NCBI GenBank assembly: GCA_017453065.1
Contig: JAFTKW010000008.1
Coordinates: forward strand, 1-42,805
Reading direction: 5' to 3'
DNA: 42,805 nucleotides
Origin: Lachnospiraceae bacterium
GTDB lineage: Bacteria > Bacillota > Clostridia > Lachnospirales > Lachnospiraceae
The notes below the pieces were generated by a model. The model did no database searches. It saw only the letters and a list, made by a program, of their open reading frames with translations, and had not been told where the DNA came from. Positions 483 through 15,809 of this stretch are shown here, one piece after another (position 1 is the first letter of the stretch; every line of letters begins with the position of its first letter). The position numbers and the translations under genes were made by a program.

Positions 483-1937
483 ATGAAAAATAGTATGACA
501 GGAAAGGAAAGAATTGCAGGGTATATGTACTATGTAACCCGTGTGCTGACTTTATTGTCTGTAGTTATGGTATTCTTTCCTGGCTTTAATCCAGCCAAGA
601 TTTGTGGATATGTAAACAAGAACATGTCCCTTTTTACAACTGCTATTGACTATTCTGGATTGACAGAGGATTGTGTGAGAGCATTCAAGATGGGATGGGT
701 ACAGGAGTATTCCTTCGTAATCTTGTTTATCTCCAGCATGGTTTCCATCATCGGTCTTATTGCAGTGGCTACCATGGCATGCATGTCCATCGGCAACAAT
801 AAATTCAAGAGATTAGGTAACAAGGTTGGTATCGTAGGTGGCATTCTTCAGGTTGTAGGATATGTTGGAATTCTGGTGGCATATTTCCAGGTTGCAGCAA
901 CTACAAGACCTGAAAAGGTTGAGCCAAGTATGCCTTGGGGCAACTGGTTAGTAAGCGTTGCTTTTGCTGCAGTAATCTTGGTGTTTACCATTGTGATTTC
1001 CACTCTTTTACCAAAGGAGCAGGAAGGCGAGAAGTTTGAGATGCAGTCCAAATACAAACTGTTCCTCATGTTCATGCCTTTTGCAGCACTTTGCTTTGTA
1101 TTCTCTTATCTGCCACTTTGGGGGTGGAGATACGCATTCTTTGACTATCGTTCTGGAGATACACTCTCCATGGACAATTTTGTAGGCCTGAAATGGTTTA
1201 CCATGCTCTTTGAAAGTGAAGCGACTAGAAACGATATCGTTCGTGTGCTTCGCAACACACTGGCAATGAGTGGTCTTGGTATTGCAACTAGTTGGTGCGC
1301 AATGGCATTTGCAATCTTTCTTTCTGAAATCAAGAGCGCAAGAGTAAAGAGATTTGTACAGACTTTCTCCACAGTACCAAACTTCATCAGCTGGGTTTTG
1401 GTTTATGCGATTGCTTTTTCCATCTTCTCCAAAGAAGGCTTTATCAGTTCCCTTTTTGTAAACATGGGAATCTGGGAAGAAGGCGTAAACATGCTGATGA
1501 GCGCAGACCACAGCTGGCTTAAGATGCTTGCATGGGGTATGTGGAAGGGCATCGGTTGGAGCGCAATTATTTACATAGCAGGTATTTCCGGCATCGACCA
1601 GCAGCTCTACGAAGCGGCTACAGTAGACGGCGCAGGCCGTTTCCAGAAGATGTGGCACATCACAGTTCCTGGTCTGATTCCTACATATATGGTAATGCTT
1701 CTGATGTCTATCGCTGGTATTCTTTCCAACGGTATGGATCAGTACCTTGTATTCGAAAATCCTATGAACGTTCAATACTTAGAGGTTCTCGACCTTTATG
1801 TATACAAACTTGGTATCGTAGGTGGATCTATCCCATTGTCAACCATGGTTGGTATGGTGAAATCCCTTGTCAGCGTAGTTTTGTTGTTTGGTGCCAACAC
1901 CATTTCCAAGTGGCTTCGTGGCGACAGTATTATTTAA
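483..1937 (+). CDS. Sugar ABC transporter permease (LplB/CUT1 type) with extra N-terminal membrane domain
   Basis: Inner-membrane permease of a CUT1-family carbohydrate importer; with the next two genes it forms permease, permease and binding protein. No ATPase is encoded here, as is usual for CUT1 systems sharing an MsmX-type ATPase. The signature EAA loop is clear at residues 377-396 (YEAATVDGAGRFQKM). Ordinary LplB proteins are about 300 residues; this one is 484. The extra roughly 185 N-terminal residues contain about four more hydrophobic segments (near 16-35, 76-101, 116-136, 155-176) before the normal permease start near residue 189. The start ATG follows GGGAGG at 471-476. The next gene starts 13 bp after its stop. 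Family assignment is firm; substrate is not readable, but the GH5 gene downstream suggests beta-glucan or related oligosaccharides. Confidence 0.92.
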   Translation: MKNSMTGKERIAGYMYYVTRVLTLLSVVMVFFPGFNPAKICGYVNKNMSLFTTAIDYSGLTEDCVRAFKMGWVQEYSFVILFISSMVSIIGLIAVATMACMSIGNNKFKRLGNKVGIVGGILQVVGYVGILVAYFQVAATTRPEKVEPSMPWGNWLVSVAFAAVILVFTIVISTLLPKEQEGEKFEMQSKYKLFLMFMPFAALCFVFSYLPLWGWRYAFFDYRSGDTLSMDNFVGLKWFTMLFESEATRNDIVRVLRNTLAMSGLGIATSWCAMAFAIFLSEIKSARVKRFVQTFSTVPNFISWVLVYAIAFSIFSKEGFISSLFVNMGIWEEGVNMLMSADHSWLKMLAWGMWKGIGWSAIIYIAGISGIDQQLYEAATVDGAGRFQKMWHITVPGLIPTYMVMLLMSIAGILSNGMDQYLVFENPMNVQYLEVLDLYVYKLGIVGGSIPLSTMVGMVKSLVSVVLLFGANTISKWLRGDSII

Positions 1938-1950
1938 GGGGGTGTAGAGC

Positions 1951-2922
1951 ATGGCTAAGACAGAACAAGAAAAACTGGACTTAAAGGCAGAAAAACTGTA
2001 CTATAAGAAGCATAAGAGACAGTTTAAACTGACTCCTGGTGATATTCTTTTCAATATCATCAACTACACATTCTTTATCGTGTTTACACTGTGTTGTATC
2101 TTCCCATTCTACTACCTGTTTATCAACACAATTTCTGATAACAGCTTAGTTCAGAAGGGTATGATCAACTTTATCCCAAGAGGAATTAACTTTGACAACT
2201 ATATCGGAATCATGAACGCAGGCGAAGTTGGTCAGGCGTTCCTGGTATCCTTTGGAAGAACTTTACTGGGAACCATTTTGATGGTTTTGGCTTCTGCATT
2301 TGTAGGCTACTTGGTAACTAAGCAGCAGATGTGGCATAGAAAGTTCTGGTATCGTTTCCTAGTAATTACCATGTACTTCAACGCAGGTACTATTCCATGG
2401 TATTTGAATATGTCCATGCTTGGTTTGACCAATAGTTTCTGGGCATACATCATTCCAGGTATCGTAGCACCTTACAATATCATTCTGGTAAAGACTTACA
2501 TTGAGTCTATTCCTGGTGAATTGGAAGAAAGTGCGTTTATGGATGGAGCTGGTTATTGGACTATCTTCAAGACCATTATTTTCCCACTGTGTAAGCCAAT
2601 CTTGGCGACCATCGCTATCTTTGGTGCAGTAGGACATTGGAACTCCTTTACAGATTCCCTGATTTTGATGCAGAATGCGCCAGAGTTGTTCACACTGCAG
2701 CACAGACTGTATCTGTACCTGAATACGACCTCTAACCTTGGTGGTTTGATCAACGGTGGTATCACTGGTACGGCAGCGGAAGTAATGATGACCAGTGCTC
2801 TAAATGCAAAGGTTATCAAGTATACCATTTCCATGGTATCCATTATTCCAATCTTGATGGTTTATCCATTCTTAACCAGATATTTTGAAAAAGGTATTAT
2901 GTTGGGTGCGGTGAAAGGTTAA
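1951..2922 (+). CDS. Sugar ABC transporter permease (YtcP/CUT1 type)
   Basis: Second permease of the importer, 323 residues, normal length for the YtcP branch of CUT1 permeases. A charged cytoplasmic N-terminus (residues 1-30) precedes about six hydrophobic segments. The EAA loop, which contacts the ATPase, is at residues 192-211 (EESAFMDGAGYWTIFK). RBS GGGGGTG lies just before the ATG. It is translationally close to the preceding permease (13 bp) and followed after 32 bp by the binding-protein gene, so the three are one operon. It should pair with the 484-residue permease to form the transport channel. Confidence 0.93.
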   Translation: MAKTEQEKLDLKAEKLYYKKHKRQFKLTPGDILFNIINYTFFIVFTLCCIFPFYYLFINTISDNSLVQKGMINFIPRGINFDNYIGIMNAGEVGQAFLVSFGRTLLGTILMVLASAFVGYLVTKQQMWHRKFWYRFLVITMYFNAGTIPWYLNMSMLGLTNSFWAYIIPGIVAPYNIILVKTYIESIPGELEESAFMDGAGYWTIFKTIIFPLCKPILATIAIFGAVGHWNSFTDSLILMQNAPELFTLQHRLYLYLNTTSNLGGLINGGITGTAAEVMMTSALNAKVIKYTISMVSIIPILMVYPFLTRYFEKGIMLGAVKG

Positions 2923-2954
2923 TGCCCCACATCATATAAAAGGAGGAAAGAAAC

Positions 2955-4661
2955 ATGAAAAAGATGAAGAGACTGGTAGCATTGTTGCTCTCCGTAGTAA
3001 TGGTTTGCAGTATGCTCACAGGCTGTGGCTCCAAGAAAGAGGATTACATCACTCTGACAGTTTACAGCCAGCTGGCTAACTACTCTGGTGAAATGCAGGG
3101 TTGGTTCGCACAGATTTTGAAAGACAAATTTGGTGTTGTTGTTAACTTGATTCCAGACAGCGAAGGTGTTTATGACACTCGTATGGAAGATGGTGACTTG
3201 GGCGACATCGTTGTATTTGGTTCTGATGATGCGAAATATCAGCAGGCAATTCAGGCAGGCATGCTTCTTGACTGGGAAGAAGACAACTTGGTTCAGGAAT
3301 ACGGCCCATATATCTGGGAGCATATGCAGGACGCTCTCAACAAGAACAAACAGGTTTCTGCAGCAAAAGATGCAGATGGCAATATCATCGGCGAAGCTGA
3401 CACAATCTACGGTTTCGGTCACGGCGTAGCATCCAGCTCTGACAGCCATGATGCTTTCTTCTATACATGGGATATCCGATGGGATCTTTATCAGCAGCTT
3501 GGACATCCAGAAGTAAAAGACTTAGACGACCTTATGTCTGTTTTGAAACAGATGAAAGAAATCTGCCCAACAGATGACAACGGCAAACCTACTTATGCTA
3601 TGTCACTTTGGCCAGACTGGGACGGAAACTATGTAATGTACGTTAAGGCTATGGCAACAGCTTACTATGGCTATGATGAATTCGGTTTCGGTCACTACAA
3701 TGTAACAAACGGTGAATATTACGATGCACTTGCAGCAGACAGCCCATATTTGGAGATGCTTGCATGGTTCAACGAACTTTATAGAGAAGGACTTCTTGAT
3801 CCAGACTCTATGACTCAGACTTATACAGATATGATTGAAAAGGTTCAGAATGGTGGCGTATTCTTCTCCATCTTCAACTACGCTGGATCTTTGGCATACA
3901 ACAAATCTGAGCACTATTCTCAGAATAAGATTATGGAAACATTGGTTCCAGAAGAGGCTTGCCCTATCGTAGGCGGTCTTAGCACACTTGGTGGTAACAG
4001 AGTATGGACTATCGGTTCCAAGACTCAGTATCCAGAACTTTGTATGGAAATCATCAACTGGCTCTGCACACCAGAAGGAAGACTTACTATGGACTACGGC
4101 CCTAAGGGTCTTTGCTGGGACTATGATGAAAACGGCAAAACTTACTTCACAGAGTTTGGTAAGCAGTGTGATGAAGATAGAAACACTATGATGCCTGAAG
4201 AATGGGGCGGAGCATCCTTCAACGATGGTGCGTTCCAGGTGAACAACCAGACTTGGGCAGCTATGGATATCAACCCTGAATCTGGCGAACCTTACGACAA
4301 ACAGTTCTGGGCAAGCACACAGGTTCCTGGTGGACGCTGTGACGCAGAAGCTGACTGGAGAGCTTTCACAGGATGTGAAACAGTAAACGAGTGCCTTGAA
4401 AAAGGAAACTATTCTGTAGACGTTCCTACTACATATGCTGAAAGAGAAAAAACAGACGCTCTTAAGACTAAATGGGAGCAGGTTGCTACCTGTCTTAAGG
4501 ATTACAGCTGGAGAGCTATCTATGCTGAGACAGAAGAAGAATTCCAGAAGATTGTAAACGAGATGCGTGGTAAAGCAATGTCTTACGGCTACAATGAATG
4601 CGTAGCATGGAGCAGAGAAGAAGCAGCAATCAAGAATGCGCTTCAGGCTCCACTTAGATAA
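2955..4661 (+). CDS. Extracellular sugar-binding lipoprotein (LplA-like)
   Basis: Substrate-binding protein of the importer encoded by the two preceding genes, 568 residues. The N-terminus has a lysine-rich start, a hydrophobic core and a lipobox ending LTGC, with the lipidated Cys at residue 24, so it is anchored to the outer face of the membrane. The rest is rich in aromatic residues and has the long two-lobed fold expected of LplA-type proteins; the length is typical of that family (about 500-570). RBS AGGAGG precedes the ATG. A stem-loop without a good T tract follows, which could allow higher expression of this gene than of the genes after it. Substrate inferred only from context: oligosaccharide, plausibly released by the GH5 enzyme. 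Confidence 0.9.
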   Translation: MKKMKRLVALLLSVVMVCSMLTGCGSKKEDYITLTVYSQLANYSGEMQGWFAQILKDKFGVVVNLIPDSEGVYDTRMEDGDLGDIVVFGSDDAKYQQAIQAGMLLDWEEDNLVQEYGPYIWEHMQDALNKNKQVSAAKDADGNIIGEADTIYGFGHGVASSSDSHDAFFYTWDIRWDLYQQLGHPEVKDLDDLMSVLKQMKEICPTDDNGKPTYAMSLWPDWDGNYVMYVKAMATAYYGYDEFGFGHYNVTNGEYYDALAADSPYLEMLAWFNELYREGLLDPDSMTQTYTDMIEKVQNGGVFFSIFNYAGSLAYNKSEHYSQNKIMETLVPEEACPIVGGLSTLGGNRVWTIGSKTQYPELCMEIINWLCTPEGRLTMDYGPKGLCWDYDENGKTYFTEFGKQCDEDRNTMMPEEWGGASFNDGAFQVNNQTWAAMDINPESGEPYDKQFWASTQVPGGRCDAEADWRAFTGCETVNECLEKGNYSVDVPTTYAEREKTDALKTKWEQVATCLKDYSWRAIYAETEEEFQKIVNEMRGKAMSYGYNECVAWSREEAAIKNALQAPLR

Positions 4662-4700
4662 GCTATTTAATGCCTTAATTAGATAGAAAAGTTACACGGA

Positions 4701-4726
4701 AGGGGCTGCCACTTTGGGCGGCCCTT
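4701..4726 (+). promoter_or_regulatory. Intercistronic stem-loop after the binding-protein gene
   Basis: A ten-position stem (AGGGGCTGCC 4701-4710 against GGCGGCCCTT 4717-4726, two G-T pairs) with a 6-nt loop. The T tract is short and broken, so it is better read as an mRNA 3'-end stabiliser or leaky attenuator than a full terminator. A similar structure follows the second binding-protein gene (42140-42165). Confidence 0.6.
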
Positions 4727-4746
4727 TCTGGAAGGAGCATATATCG

Positions 4747-5397
4747 ATGAAGTTATTTAGTGTTGATGGACCTTTGTATAAGTTTTTGTCCAGACTGTGG
4801 GATATGATCAAATTGAATTTCCTGTGGCTGCTTTTTAGCCTGCCTATTGTTACCATGGGAGCAGCTACGGTAGCGGCTTACACAGTTACCCTGAAAATGG
4901 TGGACGAGACTGAGGGGTATGTGGGGAGACAGTTCATCAAGGGATTTAAAGAAAACTGGAAGCAGGGTATTCCAATGGGATTACTGGCCATGTTTTGTGC
5001 TTATGTGGTTTATCTGGATTTCCAGCTCTTCGAGGCAGTGGAAGGCAATCCAATCTTCTTTTTGATTTTTGGAATGGTTGCAGCTTTTGTGTTTGGCTGT
5101 GCCTTCATTTATGCATTTCCTCTGTCGGCAAGATACGAAAACACCTTGTTTGCGACCTTGAAAAACTCTGCCAATATCGCTGCTAGATACTTTGTCAGAA
5201 CCATTGCACTGGTAGTGGTTCTTGCAGTAGAGATTCTCTTGATTCTTTACAACTATACAACTTTATTCTTTGGTTTTTTGATTGGACCAGCCTGCATCAT
5301 GCTGACCGTCAGTGGCTTTGCACTTCATTTCTTTAGAGAGATTGAAAAAGAGCCAGGTGCAGTGAAGGAAACGGAGAAAGCTGAGGAAGAGGACTAA
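4747..5397 (+). CDS. DUF624 / YesL-family membrane protein
   Basis: Integral membrane protein of 216 residues with about five hydrophobic segments. The N-terminal pattern (MKLFSVDGPLYKFLSRLWD) and strong W/L-rich first helix are typical of the DUF624 (YesL) family, which is regularly encoded beside LplABC-type sugar transporters and YesMN two-component systems. Its biochemical role is not established. The start was placed at ATG 4747 because AAGGAG lies at 4732-4737, 9 bp upstream; an in-frame TTG at 4714 would extend the protein by 11 residues but lies inside the preceding stem-loop. The C-terminus is a charged Glu/Lys tail in the cytoplasm. Confidence 0.85.
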   Translation: MKLFSVDGPLYKFLSRLWDMIKLNFLWLLFSLPIVTMGAATVAAYTVTLKMVDETEGYVGRQFIKGFKENWKQGIPMGLLAMFCAYVVYLDFQLFEAVEGNPIFFLIFGMVAAFVFGCAFIYAFPLSARYENTLFATLKNSANIAARYFVRTIALVVVLAVEILLILYNYTTLFFGFLIGPACIMLTVSGFALHFFREIEKEPGAVKETEKAEEED

Positions 5398-5406
5398 AAA
5401 GCTAGA

Positions 5407-5460
5407 CTGCGCGGAGCGAAGACGCAGCCTTAAAATGCAATATATAGCGCATAGATGCGC
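5407..5460 (+). other. Two short inverted repeats ahead of the GH5 gene
   Basis: CTGCG 5407-5411 pairs with CGCAG 5423-5427, and GCGCAT 5447-5452 mirrors ATGCGC 5455-5460. The second lies directly before the ribosome-binding site (AGGAAGG, near 5465). Possible leader structure for the GH5 mRNA; no T tract, so not a terminator. Confidence 0.35.
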
Positions 5461-5475
5461 GGATAGGAAGGTAAG

Positions 5476-8370
5476 ATGAAACTTAGAAAATTGTGGGGAA
5501 AGGTACTGGCTGGTGTGCTTGGACTTAGCATGTTAGTACCTATGGCAGCTGTGTTGCCAGCAGCAGAAGTGGCAGCTGCAAACAATACACAGACAGTAAG
5601 TGCGCAAATGCCTTACAGAGAGCTTAGCGCAACTGAGATTGTAAACGAGATGGGTTCTGGATGGAACCTTGGTAACACCATGGATGGCCATACGGGCTTC
5701 ACACCAAATGAAACACTTTGGCAGAACGTAGAGACCACGCAAGAATTGATTAAAGCAGTACATGATTTGGGCTTTAATACCATTCGTATTCCAGTAACCT
5801 GGGGTACCATGATTGACGATGACAACAACTATGCCATCGATGAGAAGTGGATGAGCCGTGTTCAGGATATCGTAGACTATGCGGTTAACATGAACATGTA
5901 TGCTATCGTCAACATTCATCACGATGGTGCAGAACAGTCCGGCTGGCTTAGAATTGCAGCAGAGGACTTAGATCCAGTTAAAGAGAAATACGAAGCTGTT
6001 TGGAGACAGATTGCAGAGCGCTTCAAAGATTATGACGAACATGTCATTTTTGAATCTATGAATGAAGTGTGTGGACCTGGTCAGAACCTGGCAGAAGATA
6101 CTGCACTTATCATGCAGTTCAACCAGATTTTTGTAGATACTGTTCGTAGCACAGGCTCCAACAATGCAGTGAGATGGCTTTCTGTCCCAGGAAGATATAC
6201 GAATATCACCAATACAACAAATCCTGACAATGGATTTGCGCTTCCAAACGACAGCGTAGCAAATAGACTTTTTGTGGCAGTGCACTATTATCACTGGAAC
6301 TTCGGTATGCTGGAAAATGCAAGTCTCAATGTATTTGATTATGCATCTGTTCCGGTTCTTTTGGAAGAGTTTAACCAGTTGAAAGTATTTAAAGAGCAGG
6401 GCATTCCTGTGATCCTTGGCGAGTACGGTGCAATCAACAAGATGAACGATGACGACAGAGCATATCATCTCGGTATCATCAATAGAATGTGTCAGCACCT
6501 TGGTGTAGTTCCAGTGTACTGGGATCAGGGCTGGTATGACCTTACCATGACTCCAGACTTTAGTTATACTTTGGTTGACCGTGCAACAGGTGAGGCAGTT
6601 TATCCAACCGTTATTGCGGGCATGCACAGAGGCTTGTTCCTCAAAGGTAACGATGATTTGAAAGATTTCCCAGAAGATCCTGTTATTACTCCTATCACAG
6701 ATTTGGGAACTGCATCTGGAACATGGACCTTACAGGTAGGAGATGTTGGAAACATTTCTCTTGCAGATGTGGTAGACAAAAATGCGTACAACGACATCGT
6801 ACTTTGGAAGAGTGCTGATGAATCTGTAGCAACTGTAAACCATGACAATTCCAACATCGATGTATGGGCTGGATTTGTACATGCAACTGGTATCGGTCAG
6901 ACTGTAATCACTGCATTTAGCAGCGAAGGCGGTGCAGTACTTGAGATTCCAGTTGAGGTTAGAGCGAAAGAGGCTGCTATTCCTGTGACAGATATCACAG
7001 TAGAGCAGGAATCCTATGTTGTGACAAATGGCGACTCCTTCTTCCTGAATGCACAGAAGGCGCCAGCAGATAGCGATGCATTCCTTACCTATCGTTCAAC
7101 TGACACAGATGTCATTACTGTATCCAAGATTGGTAAAGTGGTGGCTACAGGTGTAGGTAGTGCTTATGTGGTAATCACTTCCTCCGATGGATATTCCAAG
7201 GTTGTACCTGTAACAGTAGAAAAAGCAGCAGATGTATTTGAAATCCAGCTTGCTTTGAACGTATATTTCAACGATTCTGACCACAGTTATTTTACAAACG
7301 AATATGCAGATTCCATCACTGTAAATGGTGAGGGAACCTATACTTTATCCTTCGACTGTGCGAAGCATCTTTCTGATGATGCGAAGGCAGCCGGCGTAAC
7401 GGGCTTGAACAACCTGACAGCTATTTATATCAAAGACCATGCAGTAACCTTGGGCGAGGCGAAGAAGAGCCCACTGGTTTCTTGCGATATCATCTATGAC
7501 AAAGTGGTAGTAGATGGAAAGTCTTATACCGTAAATATGGATGCTCCTAAGTCTGCTCTGAAGGCATCTGGTATCTTCGATACCAACGATCCTATCAACT
7601 CCTGGGACGGTTCTGTGATTTCAGAAGTAACTGTGAACAACCATGTGCTGAACTTCTCTGAAATCGAGAATCCTCAGAAAGTGGAAGTAACCTTTACACT
7701 TAGCAACATGGTATTTGATGAGACTGCAGAAGGCCCTGCAGTAGTATATGCAGAAAGCCTGACCAACAAAGGTGTAGCAAAGGCTACTGCAAGTGCAGGC
7801 CAGCCAGCAGAAGTGGTGGCATACGCAGCACCAGCAGGTTGCGGAAAGATTTCCTTTGTGTCCAGCGACAGCAGTGTGGCATGGGTAGATCCTACAGCTG
7901 TGGAAATGGCAGCAGACAATTCTGCAAAAGCCCTTGTCTATGCAATGGGCACAGGTGAAGCGACTATCACAGCAATGACCAACAACGGCATCACAACTAC
8001 CTTTACTGTTACTGCCACGGCAGATGCTGAAGGCACTATCGTACAGCTTAAGGGGACAGCAGTGGAAGAACCAGAAGTACCTGTAGAGCCAGAGGCTCCT
8101 GTAGAACCAGAAGCTCCAGAAGCACCATCTGCAGGAGATGCAGATGATACACAGGCATCCGATGCAGACAAAGAAGTGGCTGCAGAGCCTGAAACTCCAG
8201 CACAGCCAGAGAAGTCCTCAGGCATCCTGAGTACAATTTTGCTTGTAGTTGGAATCATCGTACTTGGCGTAGGTGTATTCCTTGTAACTATGAAGATTGC
8301 ACTTGGTGGCGGCAAGAAGGCTGAGACTTCAGCCCCAGATACAACAAAAGAAGAAACAGAAGGCAAATAA
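5476..8370 (+). CDS. Membrane-anchored GH5 endoglucanase with Ig-like domains
   Basis: Exported glycoside hydrolase, 964 residues. A signal peptide spans about residues 1-34 (cleavage near AAEVAAA). The GH5 domain occupies about 50-390: GSGWNLGNTMD at 60-70, IHHDG at 147-151, the acid/base in FESMNEV (Glu197), the HYYHW block near 270 and the nucleophile in ILGEYGA (Glu316), followed by YWDQGW at 348-353. All catalytic motifs of the family are intact. The middle holds Ig-like BIG2-type repeats, clearest about 505-585, then beta-rich sequence. A Pro/Glu linker (near 868-917) leads to a single membrane helix (about 917-940) and a basic/charged tail, so the enzyme is displayed on the cell surface rather than released. 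It likely cuts beta-1,4-glucan or mixed-linkage glucan for the upstream importer; exact substrate within GH5 is not decided. Confidence 0.93.
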   Translation: MKLRKLWGKVLAGVLGLSMLVPMAAVLPAAEVAAANNTQTVSAQMPYRELSATEIVNEMGSGWNLGNTMDGHTGFTPNETLWQNVETTQELIKAVHDLGFNTIRIPVTWGTMIDDDNNYAIDEKWMSRVQDIVDYAVNMNMYAIVNIHHDGAEQSGWLRIAAEDLDPVKEKYEAVWRQIAERFKDYDEHVIFESMNEVCGPGQNLAEDTALIMQFNQIFVDTVRSTGSNNAVRWLSVPGRYTNITNTTNPDNGFALPNDSVANRLFVAVHYYHWNFGMLENASLNVFDYASVPVLLEEFNQLKVFKEQGIPVILGEYGAINKMNDDDRAYHLGIINRMCQHLGVVPVYWDQGWYDLTMTPDFSYTLVDRATGEAVYPTVIAGMHRGLFLKGNDDLKDFPEDPVITPITDLGTASGTWTLQVGDVGNISLADVVDKNAYNDIVLWKSADESVATVNHDNSNIDVWAGFVHATGIGQTVITAFSSEGGAVLEIPVEVRAKEAAIPVTDITVEQESYVVTNGDSFFLNAQKAPADSDAFLTYRSTDTDVITVSKIGKVVATGVGSAYVVITSSDGYSKVVPVTVEKAADVFEIQLALNVYFNDSDHSYFTNEYADSITVNGEGTYTLSFDCAKHLSDDAKAAGVTGLNNLTAIYIKDHAVTLGEAKKSPLVSCDIIYDKVVVDGKSYTVNMDAPKSALKASGIFDTNDPINSWDGSVISEVTVNNHVLNFSEIENPQKVEVTFTLSNMVFDETAEGPAVVYAESLTNKGVAKATASAGQPAEVVAYAAPAGCGKISFVSSDSSVAWVDPTAVEMAADNSAKALVYAMGTGEATITAMTNNGITTTFTVTATADAEGTIVQLKGTAVEEPEVPVEPEAPVEPEAPEAPSAGDADDTQASDADKEVAAEPETPAQPEKSSGILSTILLVVGIIVLGVGVFLVTMKIALGGGKKAETSAPDTTKEETEGK

Positions 8371-8373
8371 ATA

Positions 8374-8412
8374 AAAAATAGTCCGTGAAACAACTTCACG
8401 GACTATTTTTTT
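8374..8412. terminator. Bidirectional terminator between GH5 and the agr block
   Basis: Stem TAGTCCGTGAA (8379-8389) with TTCACGGACTA (8395-8405), loop ACAAC, flanked by A6 before and T7 after, so it works on both strands between convergent genes. The stop codon of the agrB remnant lies inside it. Confidence 0.93.
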
Positions 8413-8750
8413 GCACTATTTTTGCTATCCAAACAAGAAGAGCGGTGCAAACAAAAGCATAGGTAATAGATGTGCCAACCCTAGTAGGCAAAAAGGGAGT
8501 TGCGAGGAAACAGACCCCCAAAATGGTGAGAGAGATAAGTTTGTAGCGAGTTCGCAACTTATGCGTCAAAGGTTTCTTTGCTGCTTCAACAGGAGCAAAC
8601 AAAAGACATGTGATAACGCAGAATAGGTAGGAGGCTAGAAACAGTGCGGTACTCGGTTCTACTATTTTTATTACAAAATAATTGGAGCATCCCAATAAAA
8701 TACTACTTAATATGCATGTGAGCTGAGTGGGGCGTGACAAAAAGACCTCC
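8396..8750 (-). pseudogene. agrB: agrB remnant: C-terminal part of an AgrB-type peptide protease
   Basis: Downstream of agrA on the same strand the sequence encodes about 110 residues with the look of an AgrB C-terminus: PTQLTCILSSILL, several hydrophobic segments, and the FAPVEAAKKPL block, then a Lys/Arg stretch and two more helices. AgrB uses a His-Ala...Cys pair seven residues apart. Here the Cys (codon 8716-8714) is in frame, but the matching His-Ala codons (CAC GCC, 8736-8731) are one base out of frame; one extra C in the run 8732-8729 would restore HAPTQLTC with exact spacing. The N-terminal 70-odd residues are absent because agrA coding sequence abuts directly. The gene cannot make a working protease. 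The longest open frame begins at ATG 8782 inside agrA, but that start is unlikely to be meaningful. Confidence 0.75.
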
Positions 8751-9464
8751 TTTGACATCAAGGCGAGCAGAATATTTGGCAAAGGCTTCTGCCACTTGGT
8801 TCATGTAGGAACGTGCAATTTGTACAGTCGTACGATTGGACAAAGTTATGACATTTCCAGTTATCTTGTAAATATGAGCCATGTTTACAATAAAGGAGCG
8901 GTGGGTTCGGATAAACTCTTGGGGCAGGTAATCAATAATATTATTTAGTGAAGAGTATTGGCAATATGTTTCGGAGACAGTGAGTATGTCTACATAGTGG
9001 AGGCTGCTCGAGAAACAGAGAATATCTTTGTAGGGAATACAGATAGACTCTTGTTTATTTCTAAAGAAATAAGAGTTCCCTAGCAGATTTTTGGCAATCT
9101 CGTCAAGGCATAAAAATAGTTGGGCAGGTTTTACGGGCTTTAATAAGTAGTTTAATGCATGAACTTCATAGCCGTGAAAAACGTATTCTTTAAAAGCAGT
9201 TAAGAATATAATATAGCCCTGATACCCTTCTTGGCGTAATCTTTTTGCGACATCAATGCCTGTCAATTTGCTCATCTGGACGTCTAAGAAAAATACATTA
9301 GTTATGTCTGGAGGATCCTTCCGGTTTGCAAAATAGTCTTCTCCTGAGTGAAAGATATTTGCTTCGAAAGAAAAATTATTTTCATTGCACCATTCTTTTA
9401 GGTAGTTCTTTAGGCGTTCAACTTCGATTGGTTGATCTTCAAGTATCGTAACTGTTATTTTCAT
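8703..9464 (-). CDS. agrA: AgrA-like LytTR response regulator
   Basis: Transcription factor of 253 residues. The N-terminal receiver domain (about 1-125) carries the phosphoacceptor in FFLDVQMS (Asp61). A LytTR DNA-binding domain follows (about 140-238), with the typical block FIRTHRSFIVNMAHIYKI. It overlaps the AgrC kinase gene by 26 bp, so the two are translationally coupled and form the sensor pair. LytTR proteins bind paired 9-bp repeats about 12 bp apart; such a pair sits at 10887-10916 in front of agrD. The last roughly 19 residues, after AKYSAR, do not resemble an AgrA end: they read through DNA that in another frame is agrB, so this tail was probably gained by a deletion that joined the two genes. 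The DNA-binding domain itself looks complete. Confidence 0.88.
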   Translation of the reverse strand: MKITVTILEDQPIEVERLKNYLKEWCNENNFSFEANIFHSGEDYFANRKDPPDITNVFFLDVQMSKLTGIDVAKRLRQEGYQGYIIFLTAFKEYVFHGYEVHALNYLLKPVKPAQLFLCLDEIAKNLLGNSYFFRNKQESICIPYKDILCFSSSLHYVDILTVSETYCQYSSLNNIIDYLPQEFIRTHRSFIVNMAHIYKITGNVITLSNRTTVQIARSYMNQVAEAFAKYSARLDVKGGLFVTPHSAHMHIK

Positions 9465-10800
9465 CTGACAACTCCTTTAGGGGAAGTAAAATATGGACAG
9501 AAAAAACACTATTGTCTGTTTGTATTTGAATAATTCCGTCGGCTTTCTTTACTATGTCATTAATTCTCTTTAAACCGATTCCGTGTCCAGAGCCTGTTTT
9601 GACGGATAGATAAGTTTGTTCGGGAGAGATGTTTAATACACCGTCATAACTGTTATCTATGTGAATGGTAACCATGCCTTCGTATGGTTTGATGTAAAAG
9701 TTTATGAATGGATGGCAGTCAGCATGTTGTTGAATTAAGCGTACATTGGCCTCGATAGCGTTGTTCCAAAGGTTTCCAAGCAAAGAGGAAAGTGATAGTG
9801 CATCAAGGGGGAAATGCTCCGGCAACATAATGGAAAACGCAGTGTTTATATTCGCCTCTTTGGCGAGAGCAATCTTTGATGATACGATGCAATCAATGGC
9901 GGTATTTCCAGAGGAAATAAAATGATGAACTTGGTTAAGTGAGTTGTGATAACTTGCTATGTAGGAAAGCAACTCGTCTTTCTTGTTGCTAGTAGCCAAT
10001 GATTGAATGGTATCAAGATGAATGTCGATATCGTGTTTCATTTCTCGTAAGGAAGCAGTAGTCTTTAATAGATTTTTGTATTCCATTTCTTCTAAGGCGT
10101 GCAACTGCTGCTCTTCTAAAAGTTTTCTGTTTTTTGCGTTAGTAACCCCCAACTGATAGATGTAAACAAGTAGAGTTAAAAATAGAACAATGAAAACAAT
10201 GTTTATGGATACAAGTTGAAATGTAAAGGACGCATTGGTAAATAATTGCTCAGATTCAAGCGTCACACATAAAATAAAATGCCCAATTAAAATTCCAATA
10301 ATAGATATGATAAAATATGTAATCTTTTGCAGAGGAGTAAAAATGAAATCTTTGTCTGATAAGAGACCAAAAAGGAATACGAAGATAGCAATAATGGATA
10401 GGTAAAGCAGTGCGCCAGGGATACGGAGGCTACCATACGCATATAATTCGGAAAAATTTTCATTTAAGAATGCCTTTAGTACGAGGAACGGAATGTAATC
10501 TGAAACCATACAAATAACGGAGTACATACCACCCCAGAATATCTTGGTAAGAATAGTATTTTCAAAAAAGAAAAGGGCAAAGGCGACATCAAAGAAGCAT
10601 GAAAGCCCAACGGTTAACATGGAAGGTGCGCTTATGCGGTTCAATATACAGATTAAGATAAACCGAAAGAGAAGAAATAGGGATTGTTTTTCATAGTATC
10701 TTGCCATTTGTTTTTTTGCTTGAAGCCTCCTATGAATATAGTAGACGAACAATGATAATTCTATGAAATTCACCAAATATTCCCAAATGACCAATAGCAT
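9439..10800 (-). CDS. agrC: AgrC-like sensor histidine kinase (GHKL type)
   Basis: Membrane kinase of 453 residues. About six to seven hydrophobic segments fill residues 1-215, as in peptide-sensing AgrC proteins. A coiled linker follows (about 220-250). The H-box is at LREMKHDIDIH with His256, the N-box at LLGNLWNNAIEA (Asn346/347) and the G-box at GSGHGIGLKRI (403-413), so all kinase elements are present. The ATG at 10800 has GAGGGG (10807-10812) just upstream. It is divergent from the AgrD gene, which should encode its ligand, and overlaps agrA. Expected role: bind a cyclic thiolactone peptide outside the cell and phosphorylate the LytTR regulator. Confidence 0.9.
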   Translation of the reverse strand: MLLVIWEYLVNFIELSLFVYYIHRRLQAKKQMARYYEKQSLFLLFRFILICILNRISAPSMLTVGLSCFFDVAFALFFFENTILTKIFWGGMYSVICMVSDYIPFLVLKAFLNENFSELYAYGSLRIPGALLYLSIIAIFVFLFGLLSDKDFIFTPLQKITYFIISIIGILIGHFILCVTLESEQLFTNASFTFQLVSINIVFIVLFLTLLVYIYQLGVTNAKNRKLLEEQQLHALEEMEYKNLLKTTASLREMKHDIDIHLDTIQSLATSNKKDELLSYIASYHNSLNQVHHFISSGNTAIDCIVSSKIALAKEANINTAFSIMLPEHFPLDALSLSSLLGNLWNNAIEANVRLIQQHADCHPFINFYIKPYEGMVTIHIDNSYDGVLNISPEQTYLSVKTGSGHGIGLKRINDIVKKADGIIQIQTDNSVFSVHILLPLKELSDENNSYDT

Positions 10801-10829
10801 ATCTAACCCCTCTTTTTAGAACTATTTGC

Positions 10830-10859
10830 AGTATAATTCAAGCGTAAGTTTATCATCAA
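10830..10859 (-). promoter_or_regulatory. Candidate promoter of agrC-agrA
   Basis: On the minus strand TTGATG (10859-10854) and TATACT (10835-10830) are separated by 18 bp, about 30 bp before the agrC start codon. Confidence 0.5.
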
Positions 10860-10886
10860 AACAGGTGTATTACAAGGCTACTTTTT

Positions 10887-10916
10887 TCGGTTCGTGTCGG
10901 TAAAACTGCAGTTCGT
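10887..10916 (+). promoter_or_regulatory. Candidate AgrA (LytTR) binding site
   Basis: Two direct 9-mers, TCGGTTCGT (10887-10895) and GCAGTTCGT (10908-10916), separated by exactly 12 bp. Two GTT-centred repeats one double helical turn apart is the established architecture of LytTR/AgrA sites. The pair ends 11 bp before the agrD -35, a position suited to activation. Confidence 0.6.
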
Positions 10917-10927
10917 GCTAGGGTGGA

Positions 10928-10955
10928 TTGAATTTGAATTCTTTTTTGCTATATT
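10928..10955 (+). promoter_or_regulatory. Candidate agrD promoter
   Basis: TTGAAT (10928-10933), a 16-bp spacer and TATATT (10950-10955), the latter preceded by TGC to give an extended -10. It predicts a leader of about 55 nt before agrD. Confidence 0.55.
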
Positions 10956-10980
10956 GGAATTGCCATGGAAAAAACAAATT

Positions 10981-10996
10981 GTTAAATCGATTTAAC
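10981..10996. promoter_or_regulatory. Perfect 16-bp palindrome in the agrD leader
   Basis: GTTAAATCGATTTAAC is identical to its reverse complement. It lies between the predicted transcription start and the agrD ribosome-binding site, where a repressor dimer would block transcription. As RNA it has no loop, so an operator is more likely than a hairpin. Confidence 0.5.
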
Positions 10997-11016
10997 GAGA
11001 CCCAGGAGGATGAAAA

Positions 11017-11175
11017 ATGCAGAACAAAAGAAAGAATTTGGCGACAACAAGAAGGGGAACGACTGTGTTATTAGATGTAATTTCTACCATAGCAGAAAAG
11101 AATGCCACTTCTTTGTGCAGAGGAATCATGTATGAGCCTGAGATTCCCAAAAAACTAAGAAAAAAGAATCAGTAA
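11017..11175 (+). CDS. agrD: AgrD-like cyclic peptide autoinducer precursor
   Basis: A 52-residue gene, easily overlooked because of its length. GGAGG (11005-11009) lies 7 bp before ATG 11017; an ATG at 11010 is in another frame. The product has the three-part AgrD layout: a basic/amphipathic N-terminus (to about residue 27), a short signal region containing SLCRGIM, and an acidic/proline C-terminus YEPEIPKKL followed by basic residues. In known AgrD proteins a Cys five residues from the cleavage point forms a thiolactone ring, and the tail removed by AgrB reads like EVPKEL. By analogy the ring would be Cys-Arg-Gly-Ile-Met. It is divergent from agrC and sits behind the predicted LytTR site. 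No intact AgrB is encoded next to it. Ring boundaries and leader cut are inferred. Confidence 0.85.
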   Translation: MQNKRKNLATTRRGTTVLLDVISTIAEKNATSLCRGIMYEPEIPKKLRKKNQ

Positions 11176-11217: not shown

Positions 11218-11757
11218 ATGAAAATTAGTAGAGGAAAAGAAATTATTAAAAAGTTTATAGCAACAGCAATGGGAGTAGTAGTATTGTTGACTTCCAATTT
11301 GGCTGTTAGTGCATTGACGTCAGATCAGGTAGAACTGTCTGTAACAAAACCAGGAGCAGGCTATGTTGCTACGACTAGCAGTTCATTGAGGGTTAGAGCG
11401 GAAGCAAATACATCATCTACAGTGCTGGCAGCATTGCCATCAGGAAGCATGATCATGATTGTAGAAAGATGTGGTGACTTCTACAAAGTGCAGTATGATA
11501 TCTATGGACATTACGGATATGTAGCAGACCAGTATATTAGGGAGTATGACTTGGAATGTTACCGAGTTGTAAAGACTTCAGGTAGCACATTAAATGTGCG
11601 TGCGGATAGGGATTCAACTTCTACCAAAGTAGCAACAATCCCAAATGGAAGAGCTGTACCAGTTTTGAATCGTAGTACGACATGGGATTATATATTGTAT
11701 GGAAATGTAAGCGGCTATGTGTTGAACCAGTATACCGAATTGGAATATTACGAATAA
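11218..11757 (+). CDS. Secreted protein with two SH3b domains
   Basis: Exported protein of 179 residues. A signal peptide of about 32 residues has a Lys-rich start and ends near NLAVSA. Two bacterial SH3 domains follow, about 42-105 (SLRVRAEANTSSTVLAAL) and 112-175 (TLNVRADRDSTSTKVATI); the pattern LNVR-x-STSTKV is the standard SH3b signature. Such domains usually bind cell-wall peptides; no catalytic domain is attached, so it is a wall-binding or scaffold protein rather than a hydrolase. GGAGG at 11204-11208 fits the ATG at 11218. It begins 42 bp after agrD with no terminator between, so it is likely part of the quorum-controlled transcript. Confidence 0.85.
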   Translation: MKISRGKEIIKKFIATAMGVVVLLTSNLAVSALTSDQVELSVTKPGAGYVATTSSSLRVRAEANTSSTVLAALPSGSMIMIVERCGDFYKVQYDIYGHYGYVADQYIREYDLECYRVVKTSGSTLNVRADRDSTSTKVATIPNGRAVPVLNRSTTWDYILYGNVSGYVLNQYTELEYYE

Positions 11758-11847: not shown

Positions 11848-14094
11848 ATGAAAAAAAGAAGAATTAGTACAGGGATATATCTGGCGTTGATTGTATGCGC
11901 ATTTGTGGGTTGCGAAAAAACAACTGGCATAACAGAGGAACAACTGGAATCAACAATAGAATATAAACTAGAAGAAGAGCAAAACGTGCGCTGGGGATTT
12001 TCACATACAAAGTTAACGAATAGGTATGAAACCTCGACAATACATGACGGTAAAATCTATGGTTGCTATTATTGTGCTAATGGCATGGCGATTGCTGTCC
12101 AAAACATCGAAACAGGAGAGGTACTGGAGAATTATGAACTTTCGGAAGCGATAAGCGTTCAAAACATTACCGTTGATGGAACGGATAGCGTCTGTGTATT
12201 TGGAGCAACAGGAAAGAATTATGCGTTTTGGAAAATTTCTTTAGCAGGAGATATAGAGGTAATTGAAGACGTAGAAGTAGAAAACATGGGAAGTCGTCCT
12301 ACATTGAAAGGTTTCTATGCAGACAAAGAAGGAAATTATTACTTGTGGTATGAGATGTCTGTTCCGTGTGCGGAAGTGTTTGAGGACGAGGAAGAATATG
12401 CATTTACAAGCTATGGAGAAACAATCTACATAGGTATAGATAGGATATATGTAAAAGATCAAAACATGAAAACAATTTGTTATGATCAAACCCATGATGA
12501 GGTTGGTAGTTTTGTGTTCGATGAGAACGGTTTCCCTACAATGCTGGCAAAGGATATCGATGGATATTATACCCGCAGAGTACGAACGGAAGAAGGACCA
12601 GAGTATGAACAAATCCGCATAGAGGATGAGGATCTGATTGATATTAATATTGGAAATAAGGTGGCACTAACAGACGAAGGTCTACTTTATATATATGATG
12701 GTGCATTGTATCTTTATCAGATGGCAGAAGGCATAGGGGATAAACTGCTTGATCTTGCTGGCGGTGGCATTTACGAAGAAGATATCATATATCTTGGAAT
12801 GAAGGGCGATGTCATCGAAATTATAGATAATTACAAGGGGAGTGAAAACTCCGAATATACTAGGATTGAACCAGATGAAACACAGGAGAATGTGATTACT
12901 TTAGGTCTAATCAATTTGGACCCCGATATGAGAACGGTCATAACATCCTTCAATCGCTACCAAAACGAGGTGCGAATAGAACCAATAGTATACATGAAGG
13001 GATATGATTATACAGCGGCTTGCCAAGACATGTGGATTGATATGTTGCAGGGAAAAGCTCCAGATATAATTGAAACAGACGGAATAAATTATGAGCTACT
13101 AGCAAACAAAGGCGCTTTTCTAAACCTATATGAATTTATGGAATCTGATGCTAAGCTCAAAAAGGAATCCTTTGTTCCGAGCGTATTGAAGACTTATGAG
13201 CAAAATGGGAACCTGTATAATATAGCTCCTAATTTTAGGTTATATACAGTTTGGGGAGCAAGCAGCCTGGTGCAAGGAAGATATGGGGTTGATACAAGTG
13301 AGCTGATACAGATGCTTGAAAAACAAGGGGGAGATATTAATAGTATATATGGTTTGGGAGGCGATGAAAGCGTTCTGACCACCCTCTGTACCATGGGCAT
13401 GAGTGAGTTTATTGATTGGGACACTGGGACGTGCGATTTCACAGGAGAAAGTTTTTGTCAGCTTTTGGACTTTGTAAAAGAGTATGAAGGCGCAGGAAAT
13501 GTCAGTTATTATCGAGCAGTAAATGAAGGAGATGTTTTGCTTACCCTTGGGCTTATTAATTCGGTGGAAAATTATGTGATTGAGTCGGAAATCTACGGAG
13601 AGGATATTGAATTTATAGGTTGTCCAACAGGAAAGGGTACAGGATCAGTGCTGTATTATGGCTCTAGCGAATTGGCGATAAATTCCGGGACAGAACATGC
13701 CAAAGAAGCATGGGAGTTTGTAAAATATTATCTGCTAAATGGCTACAATGGAACTGGTTTTCCAACCAGAGTAGAACTACTTGAACAGGTTTTTGAAGAG
13801 TCTATGAAGGAAGAATTTGTAGAAGAAAACGGCATTGTGACACAGTGCATAAAAGGTAGCTACCAAGAATGGAGTGTTGTGGACATTAAAATATACAAGG
13901 CAGAACAAAGTGATGTGGATGCAGTTCGGGAGCTGATTGAAAGAGCAAATGGTAAATACCAATACTATGTGGATGTATTAAACATTATTGAAGAGGAAGC
14001 GGCGGCTTACTTCAAAGATCAAAAGACCATAGAACAGGTTACAGATATTATTCAAAATAGAGTTCAGTTGTTTTTAGATGAAAAAGGAAGTTGA
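11848..14094 (+). CDS. Two-part lipoprotein: beta-rich N-half and extracellular solute-binding C-half
   Basis: Exported lipoprotein of 748 residues with lipobox FVGC (Cys22). Residues about 40-345 are beta-rich with repeating short motifs (for example DGKIYGCYY, NMGSRPTLKGFYADKEGNYYLWY, DEGLLYIYDGALYLY) suggesting a propeller-like domain. Residues about 350-690 resemble a sugar-type extracellular solute-binding protein: a strand with VITSFNRYQNEV, GKAPDIIETDG, GAFLNLYEFM, and the late EHAKEAWEFVKYYL. No ABC permease or ATPase gene lies beside it, so transport may not be its role; sensing or binding of a peptide or sugar is equally possible. AGGAG at 11838-11842 precedes the ATG. It ends the divergent agrD transcript at a strong terminator. 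Family of the C-half is fairly sure; function is not known. Confidence 0.75.
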   Translation: MKKRRISTGIYLALIVCAFVGCEKTTGITEEQLESTIEYKLEEEQNVRWGFSHTKLTNRYETSTIHDGKIYGCYYCANGMAIAVQNIETGEVLENYELSEAISVQNITVDGTDSVCVFGATGKNYAFWKISLAGDIEVIEDVEVENMGSRPTLKGFYADKEGNYYLWYEMSVPCAEVFEDEEEYAFTSYGETIYIGIDRIYVKDQNMKTICYDQTHDEVGSFVFDENGFPTMLAKDIDGYYTRRVRTEEGPEYEQIRIEDEDLIDINIGNKVALTDEGLLYIYDGALYLYQMAEGIGDKLLDLAGGGIYEEDIIYLGMKGDVIEIIDNYKGSENSEYTRIEPDETQENVITLGLINLDPDMRTVITSFNRYQNEVRIEPIVYMKGYDYTAACQDMWIDMLQGKAPDIIETDGINYELLANKGAFLNLYEFMESDAKLKKESFVPSVLKTYEQNGNLYNIAPNFRLYTVWGASSLVQGRYGVDTSELIQMLEKQGGDINSIYGLGGDESVLTTLCTMGMSEFIDWDTGTCDFTGESFCQLLDFVKEYEGAGNVSYYRAVNEGDVLLTLGLINSVENYVIESEIYGEDIEFIGCPTGKGTGSVLYYGSSELAINSGTEHAKEAWEFVKYYLLNGYNGTGFPTRVELLEQVFEESMKEEFVEENGIVTQCIKGSYQEWSVVDIKIYKAEQSDVDAVRELIERANGKYQYYVDVLNIIEEEAAAYFKDQKTIEQVTDIIQNRVQLFLDEKGS

Positions 14095-14167: not shown

Positions 14168-15748
14168 CTATTCGTCGTCATCTCCGCCAGCGCCATTCTT
14201 TTTGCGGAATTCGGCTGGACTTTCGCCCACATATTTACGGAACTTTTTGTGGAAGTAATCCACATTGCGGTAGCCCACCATTTCAGCTACTTCATATACC
14301 TTATAGGTGCCCTGAAGTAACAGTGTCTTGGAATGGTTGATACGCATATGGTCGATGTAGGAGTTAAAACTCTCGCCCACAGTTTTGTGGAAAATCTTGC
14401 CCAGATAAGCGCTGTTGTAGCCAAACAGAGGGGCAATGGTTTCCAACTTAATGTTGTTCTGGTAATTGTGGTCTATGTAATACAAAATATCATCCAAAAC
14501 GCTGTTGCGGGAAGGATTTCCGGTAGCGTTCATAATCATCTCGAACTGCTCGGACAAAAATTGTACAATCTCGTAGAGGTAATGCTTTTTGTCGATGTAC
14601 TCAATGACAGTTGAGTTGGATGAAAAAGGAATGTTGTTGTTGCTGTAGAGCAGGTTGATGCGCTCCTTGATTCGCAGATACAAATCAGTGAGGAACAATT
14701 TAACTTCGGAGATATCGCTCTTTACATTGTAAAGGTATTCTTCCAGTGTACTTAAAGTTTCAACTACATTTTTGCGGTTGAAGGTCTGGAGATACCCTAC
14801 CAAAGACTGCGTATAATCTTCCAGTTTGTCCTGCTGAAGCTCGTACACGGAGGATTTGATGTCTGGAAGTTCCTCATATCCTAAGGTGTGCTGTCCCTGA
14901 ATGCAGAAGAAACGTCTGCGAATCAGCGCCAATGCATCCTGGTAGGAAAGGTAAACTTCTGCCACATCTGTAACAGGGCGACCGTAAGCCAAAAAGAGGG
15001 AATCCATAGGACTGTCTTTCTGAGGAGGTCTGTCTCCGTTGTAGTGCTCCAAGAAGTCGTTGAATCTATGCAACGCATACTGCCCCTTGAGCAGAATGAC
15101 ATTCATCTGGTTTTCAAAGAAGTGATTGAAGGTATGATCGCTACGGTTGGTCACCTTTAAAAGGTCTGCAAAGCTATAGCTTACAGCGTTTGGAATCTGG
15201 TTAAAATTCTCGTAGATTACGATTTGGTAAATATCCGCTTCCAGTTCCAATTCTTCCACATCCTGTTTGGTCAGCTGGTGTGCTCCTTCGGAAGGATCGG
15301 TAATCAAATCGTGAAGGATGGCGTCTTTTGCCTTTTGGCGGAACAAGTCGATGTGGTCGGAGGCCTTACTTTGGGCATCCAAATCTGCCTTGATCTTGAG
15401 TACGGTTTCAGAAAGCTCATCTTCGTCGATTGGCTTGGTCAGATAGGACTCTACGCCATAGCGAATCGCTTCCTGAGCGTATTTAAAATCAGAATAACCG
15501 CTGATAATAATAAATTTGCCGCCAAAGCCTCTCTCCTGAGACATGCGAACCACATCTAGGCCGGGCAATTTTGGCATGCGAATATCCATCAGAACCAAAT
15601 CAGGAGAATTGTCCAGAATACCGGCTAAGGCATCTTCGCCATTGGCTGCCTCGCCGCAAATGGTAAAGCCAATTTCTTCCCAGTCCATGATACATTTCAA
15701 ACCATCGCGAATCAAAGATTCGTCGTCTACGATAAAGACCTTGTACAT
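14168..15748 (-). CDS. AraC-type response regulator (YesN-like)
   Basis: Cytoplasmic transcription factor of 526 residues. The receiver domain (about 1-120) begins YKVFIVDDE and has the phosphoacceptor in LVLMDIRMP (about Asp55). A long middle region (about 130-420) is typical of the YesN branch. The C-terminal AraC helix-turn-helix pair (about 425-520) includes IAPLFGYNSAYLGKIFHK and VAEMVGYRNVDYFHKKFRK. YesN-type regulators, with a YesM-type kinase, usually control LplABC/YesL sugar loci such as the one at 483-8370; here no kinase gene is adjacent, so the partner must be elsewhere. The start is ATG 15748, with AAAGG about 8 bp upstream; a TTG one codon earlier is less likely. The acidic tail DDDE is natural. 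Confidence 0.9.
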   Translation of the reverse strand: MYKVFIVDDESLIRDGLKCIMDWEEIGFTICGEAANGEDALAGILDNSPDLVLMDIRMPKLPGLDVVRMSQERGFGGKFIIISGYSDFKYAQEAIRYGVESYLTKPIDEDELSETVLKIKADLDAQSKASDHIDLFRQKAKDAILHDLITDPSEGAHQLTKQDVEELELEADIYQIVIYENFNQIPNAVSYSFADLLKVTNRSDHTFNHFFENQMNVILLKGQYALHRFNDFLEHYNGDRPPQKDSPMDSLFLAYGRPVTDVAEVYLSYQDALALIRRRFFCIQGQHTLGYEELPDIKSSVYELQQDKLEDYTQSLVGYLQTFNRKNVVETLSTLEEYLYNVKSDISEVKLFLTDLYLRIKERINLLYSNNNIPFSSNSTVIEYIDKKHYLYEIVQFLSEQFEMIMNATGNPSRNSVLDDILYYIDHNYQNNIKLETIAPLFGYNSAYLGKIFHKTVGESFNSYIDHMRINHSKTLLLQGTYKVYEVAEMVGYRNVDYFHKKFRKYVGESPAEFRKKNGAGGDDDE

Positions 15749-15809
15749 CAAATAGACCTTTTCCTTCCTAATGAATAACTGTGCTTAATTCAGCGGATAA
15801 CTAACCTTA

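Follow-up and report, generated by a model that had tools for sequence, protein, structure and literature searches.

What becomes of a quorum sensing system when the gene for its peptide-processing enzyme is broken and the rest is left standing? The question is raised by an agr-type locus of a Lachnospiraceae bacterium, on a stretch of 42,805 nucleotides (contig JAFTKW010000008.1 of assembly GCA_017453065.1) called here the window. An earlier note, made from the letters of this DNA, had described an agr-type locus with intact agrD (peptide precursor), agrC (sensor kinase) and agrA (response regulator) and a broken agrB (processing enzyme), and family models bear this description out. By its sequence the locus is agr-derived but incomplete, for want of a complete AgrB. 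We propose that a recent agrB deletion probably left a mute receiver, able to hear its neighbours but not to speak.

The agrB lesion

In the remaining agrB frame the N-terminal part and the conserved block of Arg, Gly-Gly and His are absent, and the Cys is kept. R70, G74, G75, H77 and C84 are invariant in all five intact AgrB proteins of related loci that were aligned (5/5), and the window frame retains the Cys alone. R70, G75, H77 and C84 are listed as needed in Staphylococcus aureus AgrB (PMC10196373), and no complete AgrB carrying these residues is encoded in the window. The TTG start formerly listed for the remnant falls within agrA and is not a native start. Where agrB is intact in relatives, AgrA is 240-244 residues long, and agrB starts within about 12 bases of the agrA end. 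AgrA of the window is longer (253 residues) because agrA reads on into former agrB sequence, and as it extends into agrB sequence around the active site, approximately the first 75 agrB codons are missing. By eye, a GGAGG-type motif can be made out close to some agrB starts and again within the Gly-Gly codons of relatives, so that a deletion between short repeats is a possible origin of the lesion; at the window junction, only very short repeats are visible by eye.

The remnant has no stop over about 110 codons. In an unrooted five-sequence tree its branch (0.72) is not longer than those of the intact L082 (0.74) and L083 (1.19), the sister tips L066 and L073 having 0.32 and 0.27. The open frame and the branch length therefore suggest that the deletion is recent. 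With a loss so recent, the integrity of the neighbouring agr genes proves little, and the earlier argument that the intact agrD, agrC and agrA frames speak against decay fails, the agrB remnant being itself undecayed. In S. aureus, agrB deletion mutants produce no autoinducing peptide (PMC10482373). Following a 5' deletion of agrB, the known route would no longer give the bacterium a mature cyclic peptide of its own.

Recurrent loss of agrB in related loci

Related loci were collected by a pattern scan for AgrC over genome contigs, which reaches close relatives only and gave 10 loci, and by AgrA profile searches of 138 genus and 397 family genomes, which added G146, G448 and G519 and refound G047 and G298. 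After merging L081 (G298) with L067, and G047 with L071, pairs that match in size and contig coordinates, the clade comprises 14 loci including the window, with the usual layout agrC-agrA-agrB and a divergent agrD. The comparison with relatives that the earlier note had called for shows agrB intact in 10 of these 14 loci (L066, L067, L068, L069, L070, L073, L075, L082, L083 and L079) and lost in four, each time by a different lesion. The window has a 5' deletion. L071 carries an insertion with three transposase-type frames, IS66-like by eye, which cuts AgrB after about codon 125. L072 has a junction after about codon 61 that might be an assembly join, and in L074 a deletion runs from the agrB start to about 60 bases beyond its end. 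L074 has also lost agrD and the small secreted gene; what remains there, namely agrC, agrA, the promoter and the lipoprotein gene, is about 99% identical to L069. Both agrC and agrA are full length in 13/14 loci, L079 being cut by the contig start, and agrD is seen in 11/14, being deleted in L074 and beyond the contig end in L066 and L079.

How unusual such breakage is can be gauged from the 117 relatives, in which 5 of 75 PF04647 rows were judged short, as they cover fewer than 150 of the 185 positions without being cut by a contig end; this clade accounts for two of the five. The broken fraction is 4/14 in the clade versus 3/73 in the background (Fisher p 0.012), or 3/13 versus 3/73 without the window (p 0.042), in a weak comparison of related rows that were judged by eye, two of the five short ones lying below the cut-off.

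Some candidates were set aside. Loci L084, L085, L086, L087, L088 and L078 (G175) are more distant (AgrA 33-39%); the AgrB is short in L085 (127 aa) and intact in L086 (187 aa), and none lies alongside in L084, L087 and L088. The partial AgrBs of G001 and G099 were rejected as breaks because they are contig ends (the G099 match starts at contig base 10), and the G011 hit is below the cut-off, in an unrelated stretch. G035, in which a short AgrB adjoins kinase and regulator frames that by eye belong to a different type, was excluded as non-clade, though it would have favoured our reading.

Outside the clade, two agr-like loci with short AgrB frames were also seen, L092 (4320-4703) and L101 (3188-3680), of genomes G543 (127 aa) and G035 (two such frames beside kinase and regulator genes). 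L091 (G484), L094 (G356) and L095 (G410) are more distant agrC-agrA pairs with no adjoining agrB, and are possibly further receiver-only loci; in their genomes, AgrB matches number none in G410, one below the cut-off in G484 and two elsewhere in G356.

AgrB elsewhere in the genome

The own genome assembly measures 2.73 Mb in 45 contigs and is estimated at 84.7% complete with 5.06% contamination. Over this incomplete assembly the remnant was the sole PF04647 match, with no second AgrB. A clade-specific AgrB profile (E <= 1) added a single weak hit, C12:298124 (E 0.008), which was rejected because the surrounding frame looks by eye like an MFS-type transporter. The suggestion in the earlier note that an AgrB elsewhere in the same genome acts in trans thus finds no support in whole-assembly searches, about 15% of the genome being missing. 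The genome has one AgrD. Among the relatives, 35 of 117 have an AgrD and all 35 have a PF04647 match at E <= 0.001 (34 above the cut-off), so that an AgrD without a whole AgrB in the genome is unusual; G000 and G047 count here only through broken copies.

The number of AgrBs differs between genomes with intact and with lost agrB. At E <= 0.001 the former hold 9 (G579), 4 (G580), 8 (G581), 4 (G582), 1 (G583), 10 (G584), 8 (G448) and 4 (G519) PF04647 matches, of which a few are partial, contain stops or lie under the cut-off; the latter hold the broken copy only (G000, G577, G578) or no match (G576). An AgrB elsewhere is found in 0/4 agrB-lost versus 7/8 agrB-intact genomes (Fisher p 0.010; p 0.024 without the window), a contrast that leaves out G146 and the genome of L070. 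Among the seven records not titled as strains (G000, G576, G577 and G578 versus G580, G581 and G582), p is 0.029. The genomes are few and partly related, and the p values are therefore only a guide. As a separate observation, the genomes of L069, L075 and L068 (G579, G581 and G584), with 9, 8 and 10 matches, each hold many parallel agr-like systems.

Signal peptide, receiver and target promoter

The reading of the small divergent gene as an AgrD precursor was upheld by its match to TIGR04223, the Pfam AgrD model being narrowly missed (22.2 bits versus a cut-off of 22.7). The precursor has a cyclisable Cys followed by a charged, proline-containing tail. S. aureus AgrD is cleaved between M32 and D33, its ring Cys being C28 (PMC10196373), and by analogy with this site the cut would fall after the fifth ring residue. 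The predicted ring-tail pairs are CRGIM-YEPEIP in the window, CRGLM-YEPEIP in G448, CRGFM-YEPNVP in G519 and CRGLL-YEPKVP in G047. The five-residue cores of the clade differ from CRGIM of the window by one or two residues and are so nearly alike that foreign peptides could be heard.

The region before agrD has a conserved layout. In all 13 loci compared (L071 entered as G047; L079 not included, the region being absent from its contig), two 9-bp repeats with a 21-nt period are followed after 9-10 bp by TTGAAA/T, a spacer of 15-16 nt and TATATT/TATTAT. The L066 match is a second such promoter, beside agrC, because its contig ends before agrD. A pattern of this layout, drafted from the loci themselves, matched once in the real window and never in 200 mononucleotide shuffles. 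In its strict form, looser variants being left out, the repeat pair GTTYGTG-N13-15-GTTYGTG has a single mismatch-free match in the own genome, at the agrD promoter, and the reversed control gave 0. A generic consensus promoter scan also lists the agrD promoter, but overall it did no better than shuffles (21 found versus a mean of 18.3, sd 4.4), so the promoter argument rests on conservation. The window thus carries paired direct repeats before a putative AgrA-activated promoter, and in S. aureus AgrA is described as binding a pair of direct repeats that precede the agr promoters, whose spacers measure 18 and 20 nt (PMC4227749). L067 and L068 were seen to have two box-promoter copies, at reverse-strand positions 9409 and 10970. 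One of them is directed at additional genes that have been inserted between agrC and agrD, so that the agr-controlled genes seem to differ between copies of the block.

Taken as a mechanism, our proposal would run as follows. A laterally acquired block of agrC-agrA-agrB and divergent agrD, with secreted output genes, would have suffered a recent deletion of about the first 75 agrB codons. AgrC would sense a CRG-type thiolactone from neighbours with intact clade loci and phosphorylate AgrA, which would act at the direct-repeat promoter and activate agrD together with the genes for the SH3 protein and the lipoprotein. The gene content, the deletion in the assembled sequence, the lack of a second AgrB in the assembly and the conservation of the promoter are established; reception of a foreign peptide by AgrC, and upkeep of the receiver state as opposed to simple decay, are what we infer.

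Alternative explanations

A receiver state is favoured by the repeated loss of agrB, by the loss of both agrB and agrD in L074 and by the difference in AgrB number between genomes. The earlier idea that the cell listens to a peptide of relatives gains from the streptococcal sil precedent (see below) and from the complete receiver and promoter, and falls short of proof. Several observations pull the other way. The genome is a draft, with the completeness and contamination given above, and no broken agrB locus comes from a record titled as a strain. The undecayed remnant makes early decay equally consistent. The private changes of L074 (7 synonymous and 10 non-synonymous in agrC, 1 and 1 in agrA) are too few to judge selection and hint, if anything, at weak constraint; L073 was dropped from these counts, as its agrC frame differs in length and was misaligned. 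The -35/-10 spacer of 15-16 nt is below 17, whereas those of the S. aureus agr promoters are above. The loci were found through AgrC or AgrA, so that losses of these two genes are under-counted, and the correcting AgrB-profile search of 397 genomes gave three loci at E <= 1e-25, all complete. We hold only tentatively, and as doubtful, the wider proposal that Lachnospiraceae arrive again and again, under selection, at a receiver-only agr. After lateral acquisition, genomes without another AgrB would repeatedly drop the processing enzyme, and in one case the signal gene as well, and keep the kinase, the regulator and the target promoter; they could then respond to the peptides of their neighbours without the cost or exposure of a signal of their own.

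Plain decay, in which the transferred block brought little benefit, chance made agrB the first gene to be hit and the others will follow with no listening maintained, seems to us a possible but not a likely account. It agrees with an undecayed remnant, and hence a recent event, with the loss of agrD already in L074 with the accessory nature of the block (clade AgrA in 3/138 genus genomes) and with the small numbers; yet it has to accommodate four separate agrB lesions with agrC and agrA full length in 13/14 loci, though the search route favours such loci. An assembly artefact or strain mixture, with a normal agrB in the organism and the deletion a draft error, is rather improbable. The four lesions are unlike in kind and place, L066, L073 and L075 are intact though their records are not titled as strains, and the repeats at the window junction are very short by eye; on the other hand the strain-titled loci L067-L070 are all intact, the broken L074 is titled a metagenome-assembled genome and the titles of L071 and L072 are silent, the L072 break could be an assembly join, and the own genome is in 45 contigs with some contamination. 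Processing of AgrD in trans by an AgrB whose gene lies in unassembled sequence, so that the cell still makes its own signal, we regard as very improbable. About 15% of the genome is indeed missing, many relatives carry several AgrBs, and all 35 AgrD genomes have some PF04647 match, but no other AgrB was found in any of the four agrB-less genomes. Redundancy predicts losses in AgrB-rich genomes, and agrB was lost where no other AgrB was found, which is the opposite.

Gene organization and acquisition of the block

The agr block consists of two divergent units, agrC-agrA-agrB' on the minus strand and agrD with output genes on the plus strand (Table 1). The gene set given in the earlier note stands; its gene description is corrected as to order (agrC-agrA-agrB', with agrD divergent) and as to the TTG start of the remnant, which is not native.

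Table 1. Features of the agr block and its edge in the window, with the evidence for each assignment.
Feature	Position	Strand	Evidence
Terminator-like hairpin separating the cellulase gene from the agr block	8373..8411	.	Sequence scan
agrB remnant	8396..8782	-	PF04647, 37 bits (cut-off 23), profile positions 73-183 of 185; alignment to five intact homologues
agrA, response regulator, receiver (PF00072) and LytTR (PF04397) domains, 253 aa	8703..9464	-	Pfam, both above cut-off
agrC, membrane sensor kinase, 453 aa, full length	9439..10800	-	GHKL domain PF14501, 61.7 bits (cut-off 22)
Putative AgrA box, two 9-bp direct repeats, 21-nt period	10888..10917	+	Layout conserved in relatives
Putative agrD promoter, -35 TTGAAT, 16-nt spacer, -10 TATATT	10928..10955	+	Layout conserved in relatives
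agrD ribosome binding site AGGAGG	11004..11009	+	Read directly
agrD precursor, predicted ring CRGIM then YEPEIPKKL	11017..11175	+	TIGR04223 (AgrD family cyclic lactone autoinducer), 38.8 bits (cut-off 19); CRG-type relatives
Secreted-type protein with two SH3_3 domains, likely output gene co-transcribed with agrD	11218..11757	+	Pfam SH3_3
Lipoprotein-like protein with solute-binding domain, likely output gene	11848..14094	+	Pfam SBP_bac_1

AgrA of the window is 60% identical to that of G047, and AgrC is 45% identical to that of G047 (full-length alignment) and 51% to that of G448. A small secreted-type protein directly after agrD is also encoded in G047, G448 and G519, and lipoprotein-type genes lie further downstream in G047 and G448. 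The window proteins do not reach the NCBIfam equivalog models for staphylococcal AgrA (40.3 bits versus a cut-off of 400) and AgrB-like proteins (17.4 versus 282). In the family-model scans the kinase matched no AgrC-specific model, and its identity follows from the GHKL domain and the clade match.

The block is flanked by a GH5 cellulase gene and a response-regulator gene. It was seen to interrupt a cluster of polysaccharide-use type (window positions 483-8370 and 14168-15751) with ABC permeases, a binding protein, the GH5 cellulase and the response regulator. A related response regulator occurs in 27 genus genomes, and the stretches from five of them were compared. In four of the five, ABC permeases, a binding protein, a protein in the DUF624 position, the GH5 cellulase and the response regulator are grouped as they are in the window; the remaining stretch (G027) begins at the cellulase. 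No AgrA or AgrC match was found in the five stretches. In G057 some 60 bases separate the cellulase gene from the regulator gene, and the other four stretches have a GH43-type enzyme gene (by eye) between them.

The G+C content of the block is 0.35-0.39 versus 0.44 in its surroundings. L066 adjoins relaxase-, excisionase- and integrase-like genes (named by eye), and L067 and L068, whose record titles read Fusicatenibacter saccharivorans and Roseburia faecis, share 99.98% identity across 14.5 kb that take in the agr genes. The low G+C, the empty sites in relatives, the mobility genes and the L067/L068 identity together indicate that the block travels, and on this comparative evidence we take it that the agr block is laterally acquired. 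The block is accessory, since clade AgrA at E <= 1e-40 occurs in only 3/138 genus genomes, namely G000, G047 and G146 (in the last as a fragment at a contig end); the matches in G175 and the second match in G047 are more distant. Beside these findings we note the near-identical L066 with its mobility-type genes, and the L067/L068 identity as a very recent transfer between genera. A plasmid or phage home was considered and rejected, as only partial kinase matches were obtained, covering at most 46% of AgrC on plasmids (6 records) and at most 45% on phages (14 records), and no relative was found among viral contigs.

Comparison with known systems

Among the titles and beginnings of abstracts listed in literature searches, in some cases a part of the matches (such as 20 of 243 and 12 of 39), we saw no description of agrB-less agrC/agrA/agrD loci in Lachnospiraceae. 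A clade that repeatedly loses signal making but keeps reception would be a natural test system for eavesdropping between gut bacteria, and the predicted rings CRGIM, CRGLM, CRGFM and CRGLL are short enough for synthesis.

The window locus shares with S. aureus agr (agrBDCA) the AgrD core with a P..P tail, the GHKL kinase, the LytTR regulator, the AgrB family and the paired repeats before the target promoter. It differs in its order agrC-agrA-agrB with divergent agrD, in the truncated agrB and in the secreted output genes after agrD. Among S. aureus frameshifts, agrC is reported to have the most different ones, and agrB frameshifts also exist (PMC8768832). The intact clade loci (record titles Roseburia faecis, Fusicatenibacter saccharivorans and Petralouisia muris; G448, G519) have the same gene set, layout and promoter layout, with AgrA 57-63% and AgrC 45-51% identical to those of the window; unlike in the window, their agrB is complete. 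Partial agr loci are known from Clostridioides difficile, where agr1 consists of agrBD only, and from phage phiCDHM1, whose agr3 is agrCBD (PMC3901668). These lack kinase and regulator, or the regulator, and keep the signal-making half, whereas the window lacks the signal-processing enzyme. Mute reception has a tested precedent in the streptococcal sil locus, in which a group A streptococcus (GAS) strain with a broken start codon in its own peptide gene senses the peptide of other GAS and group G streptococcus strains, and in which a truncated processor/exporter gene also accompanies non-production (PMC2766830). There, peptide processing and export depend on an ABC transporter and not on an AgrB.

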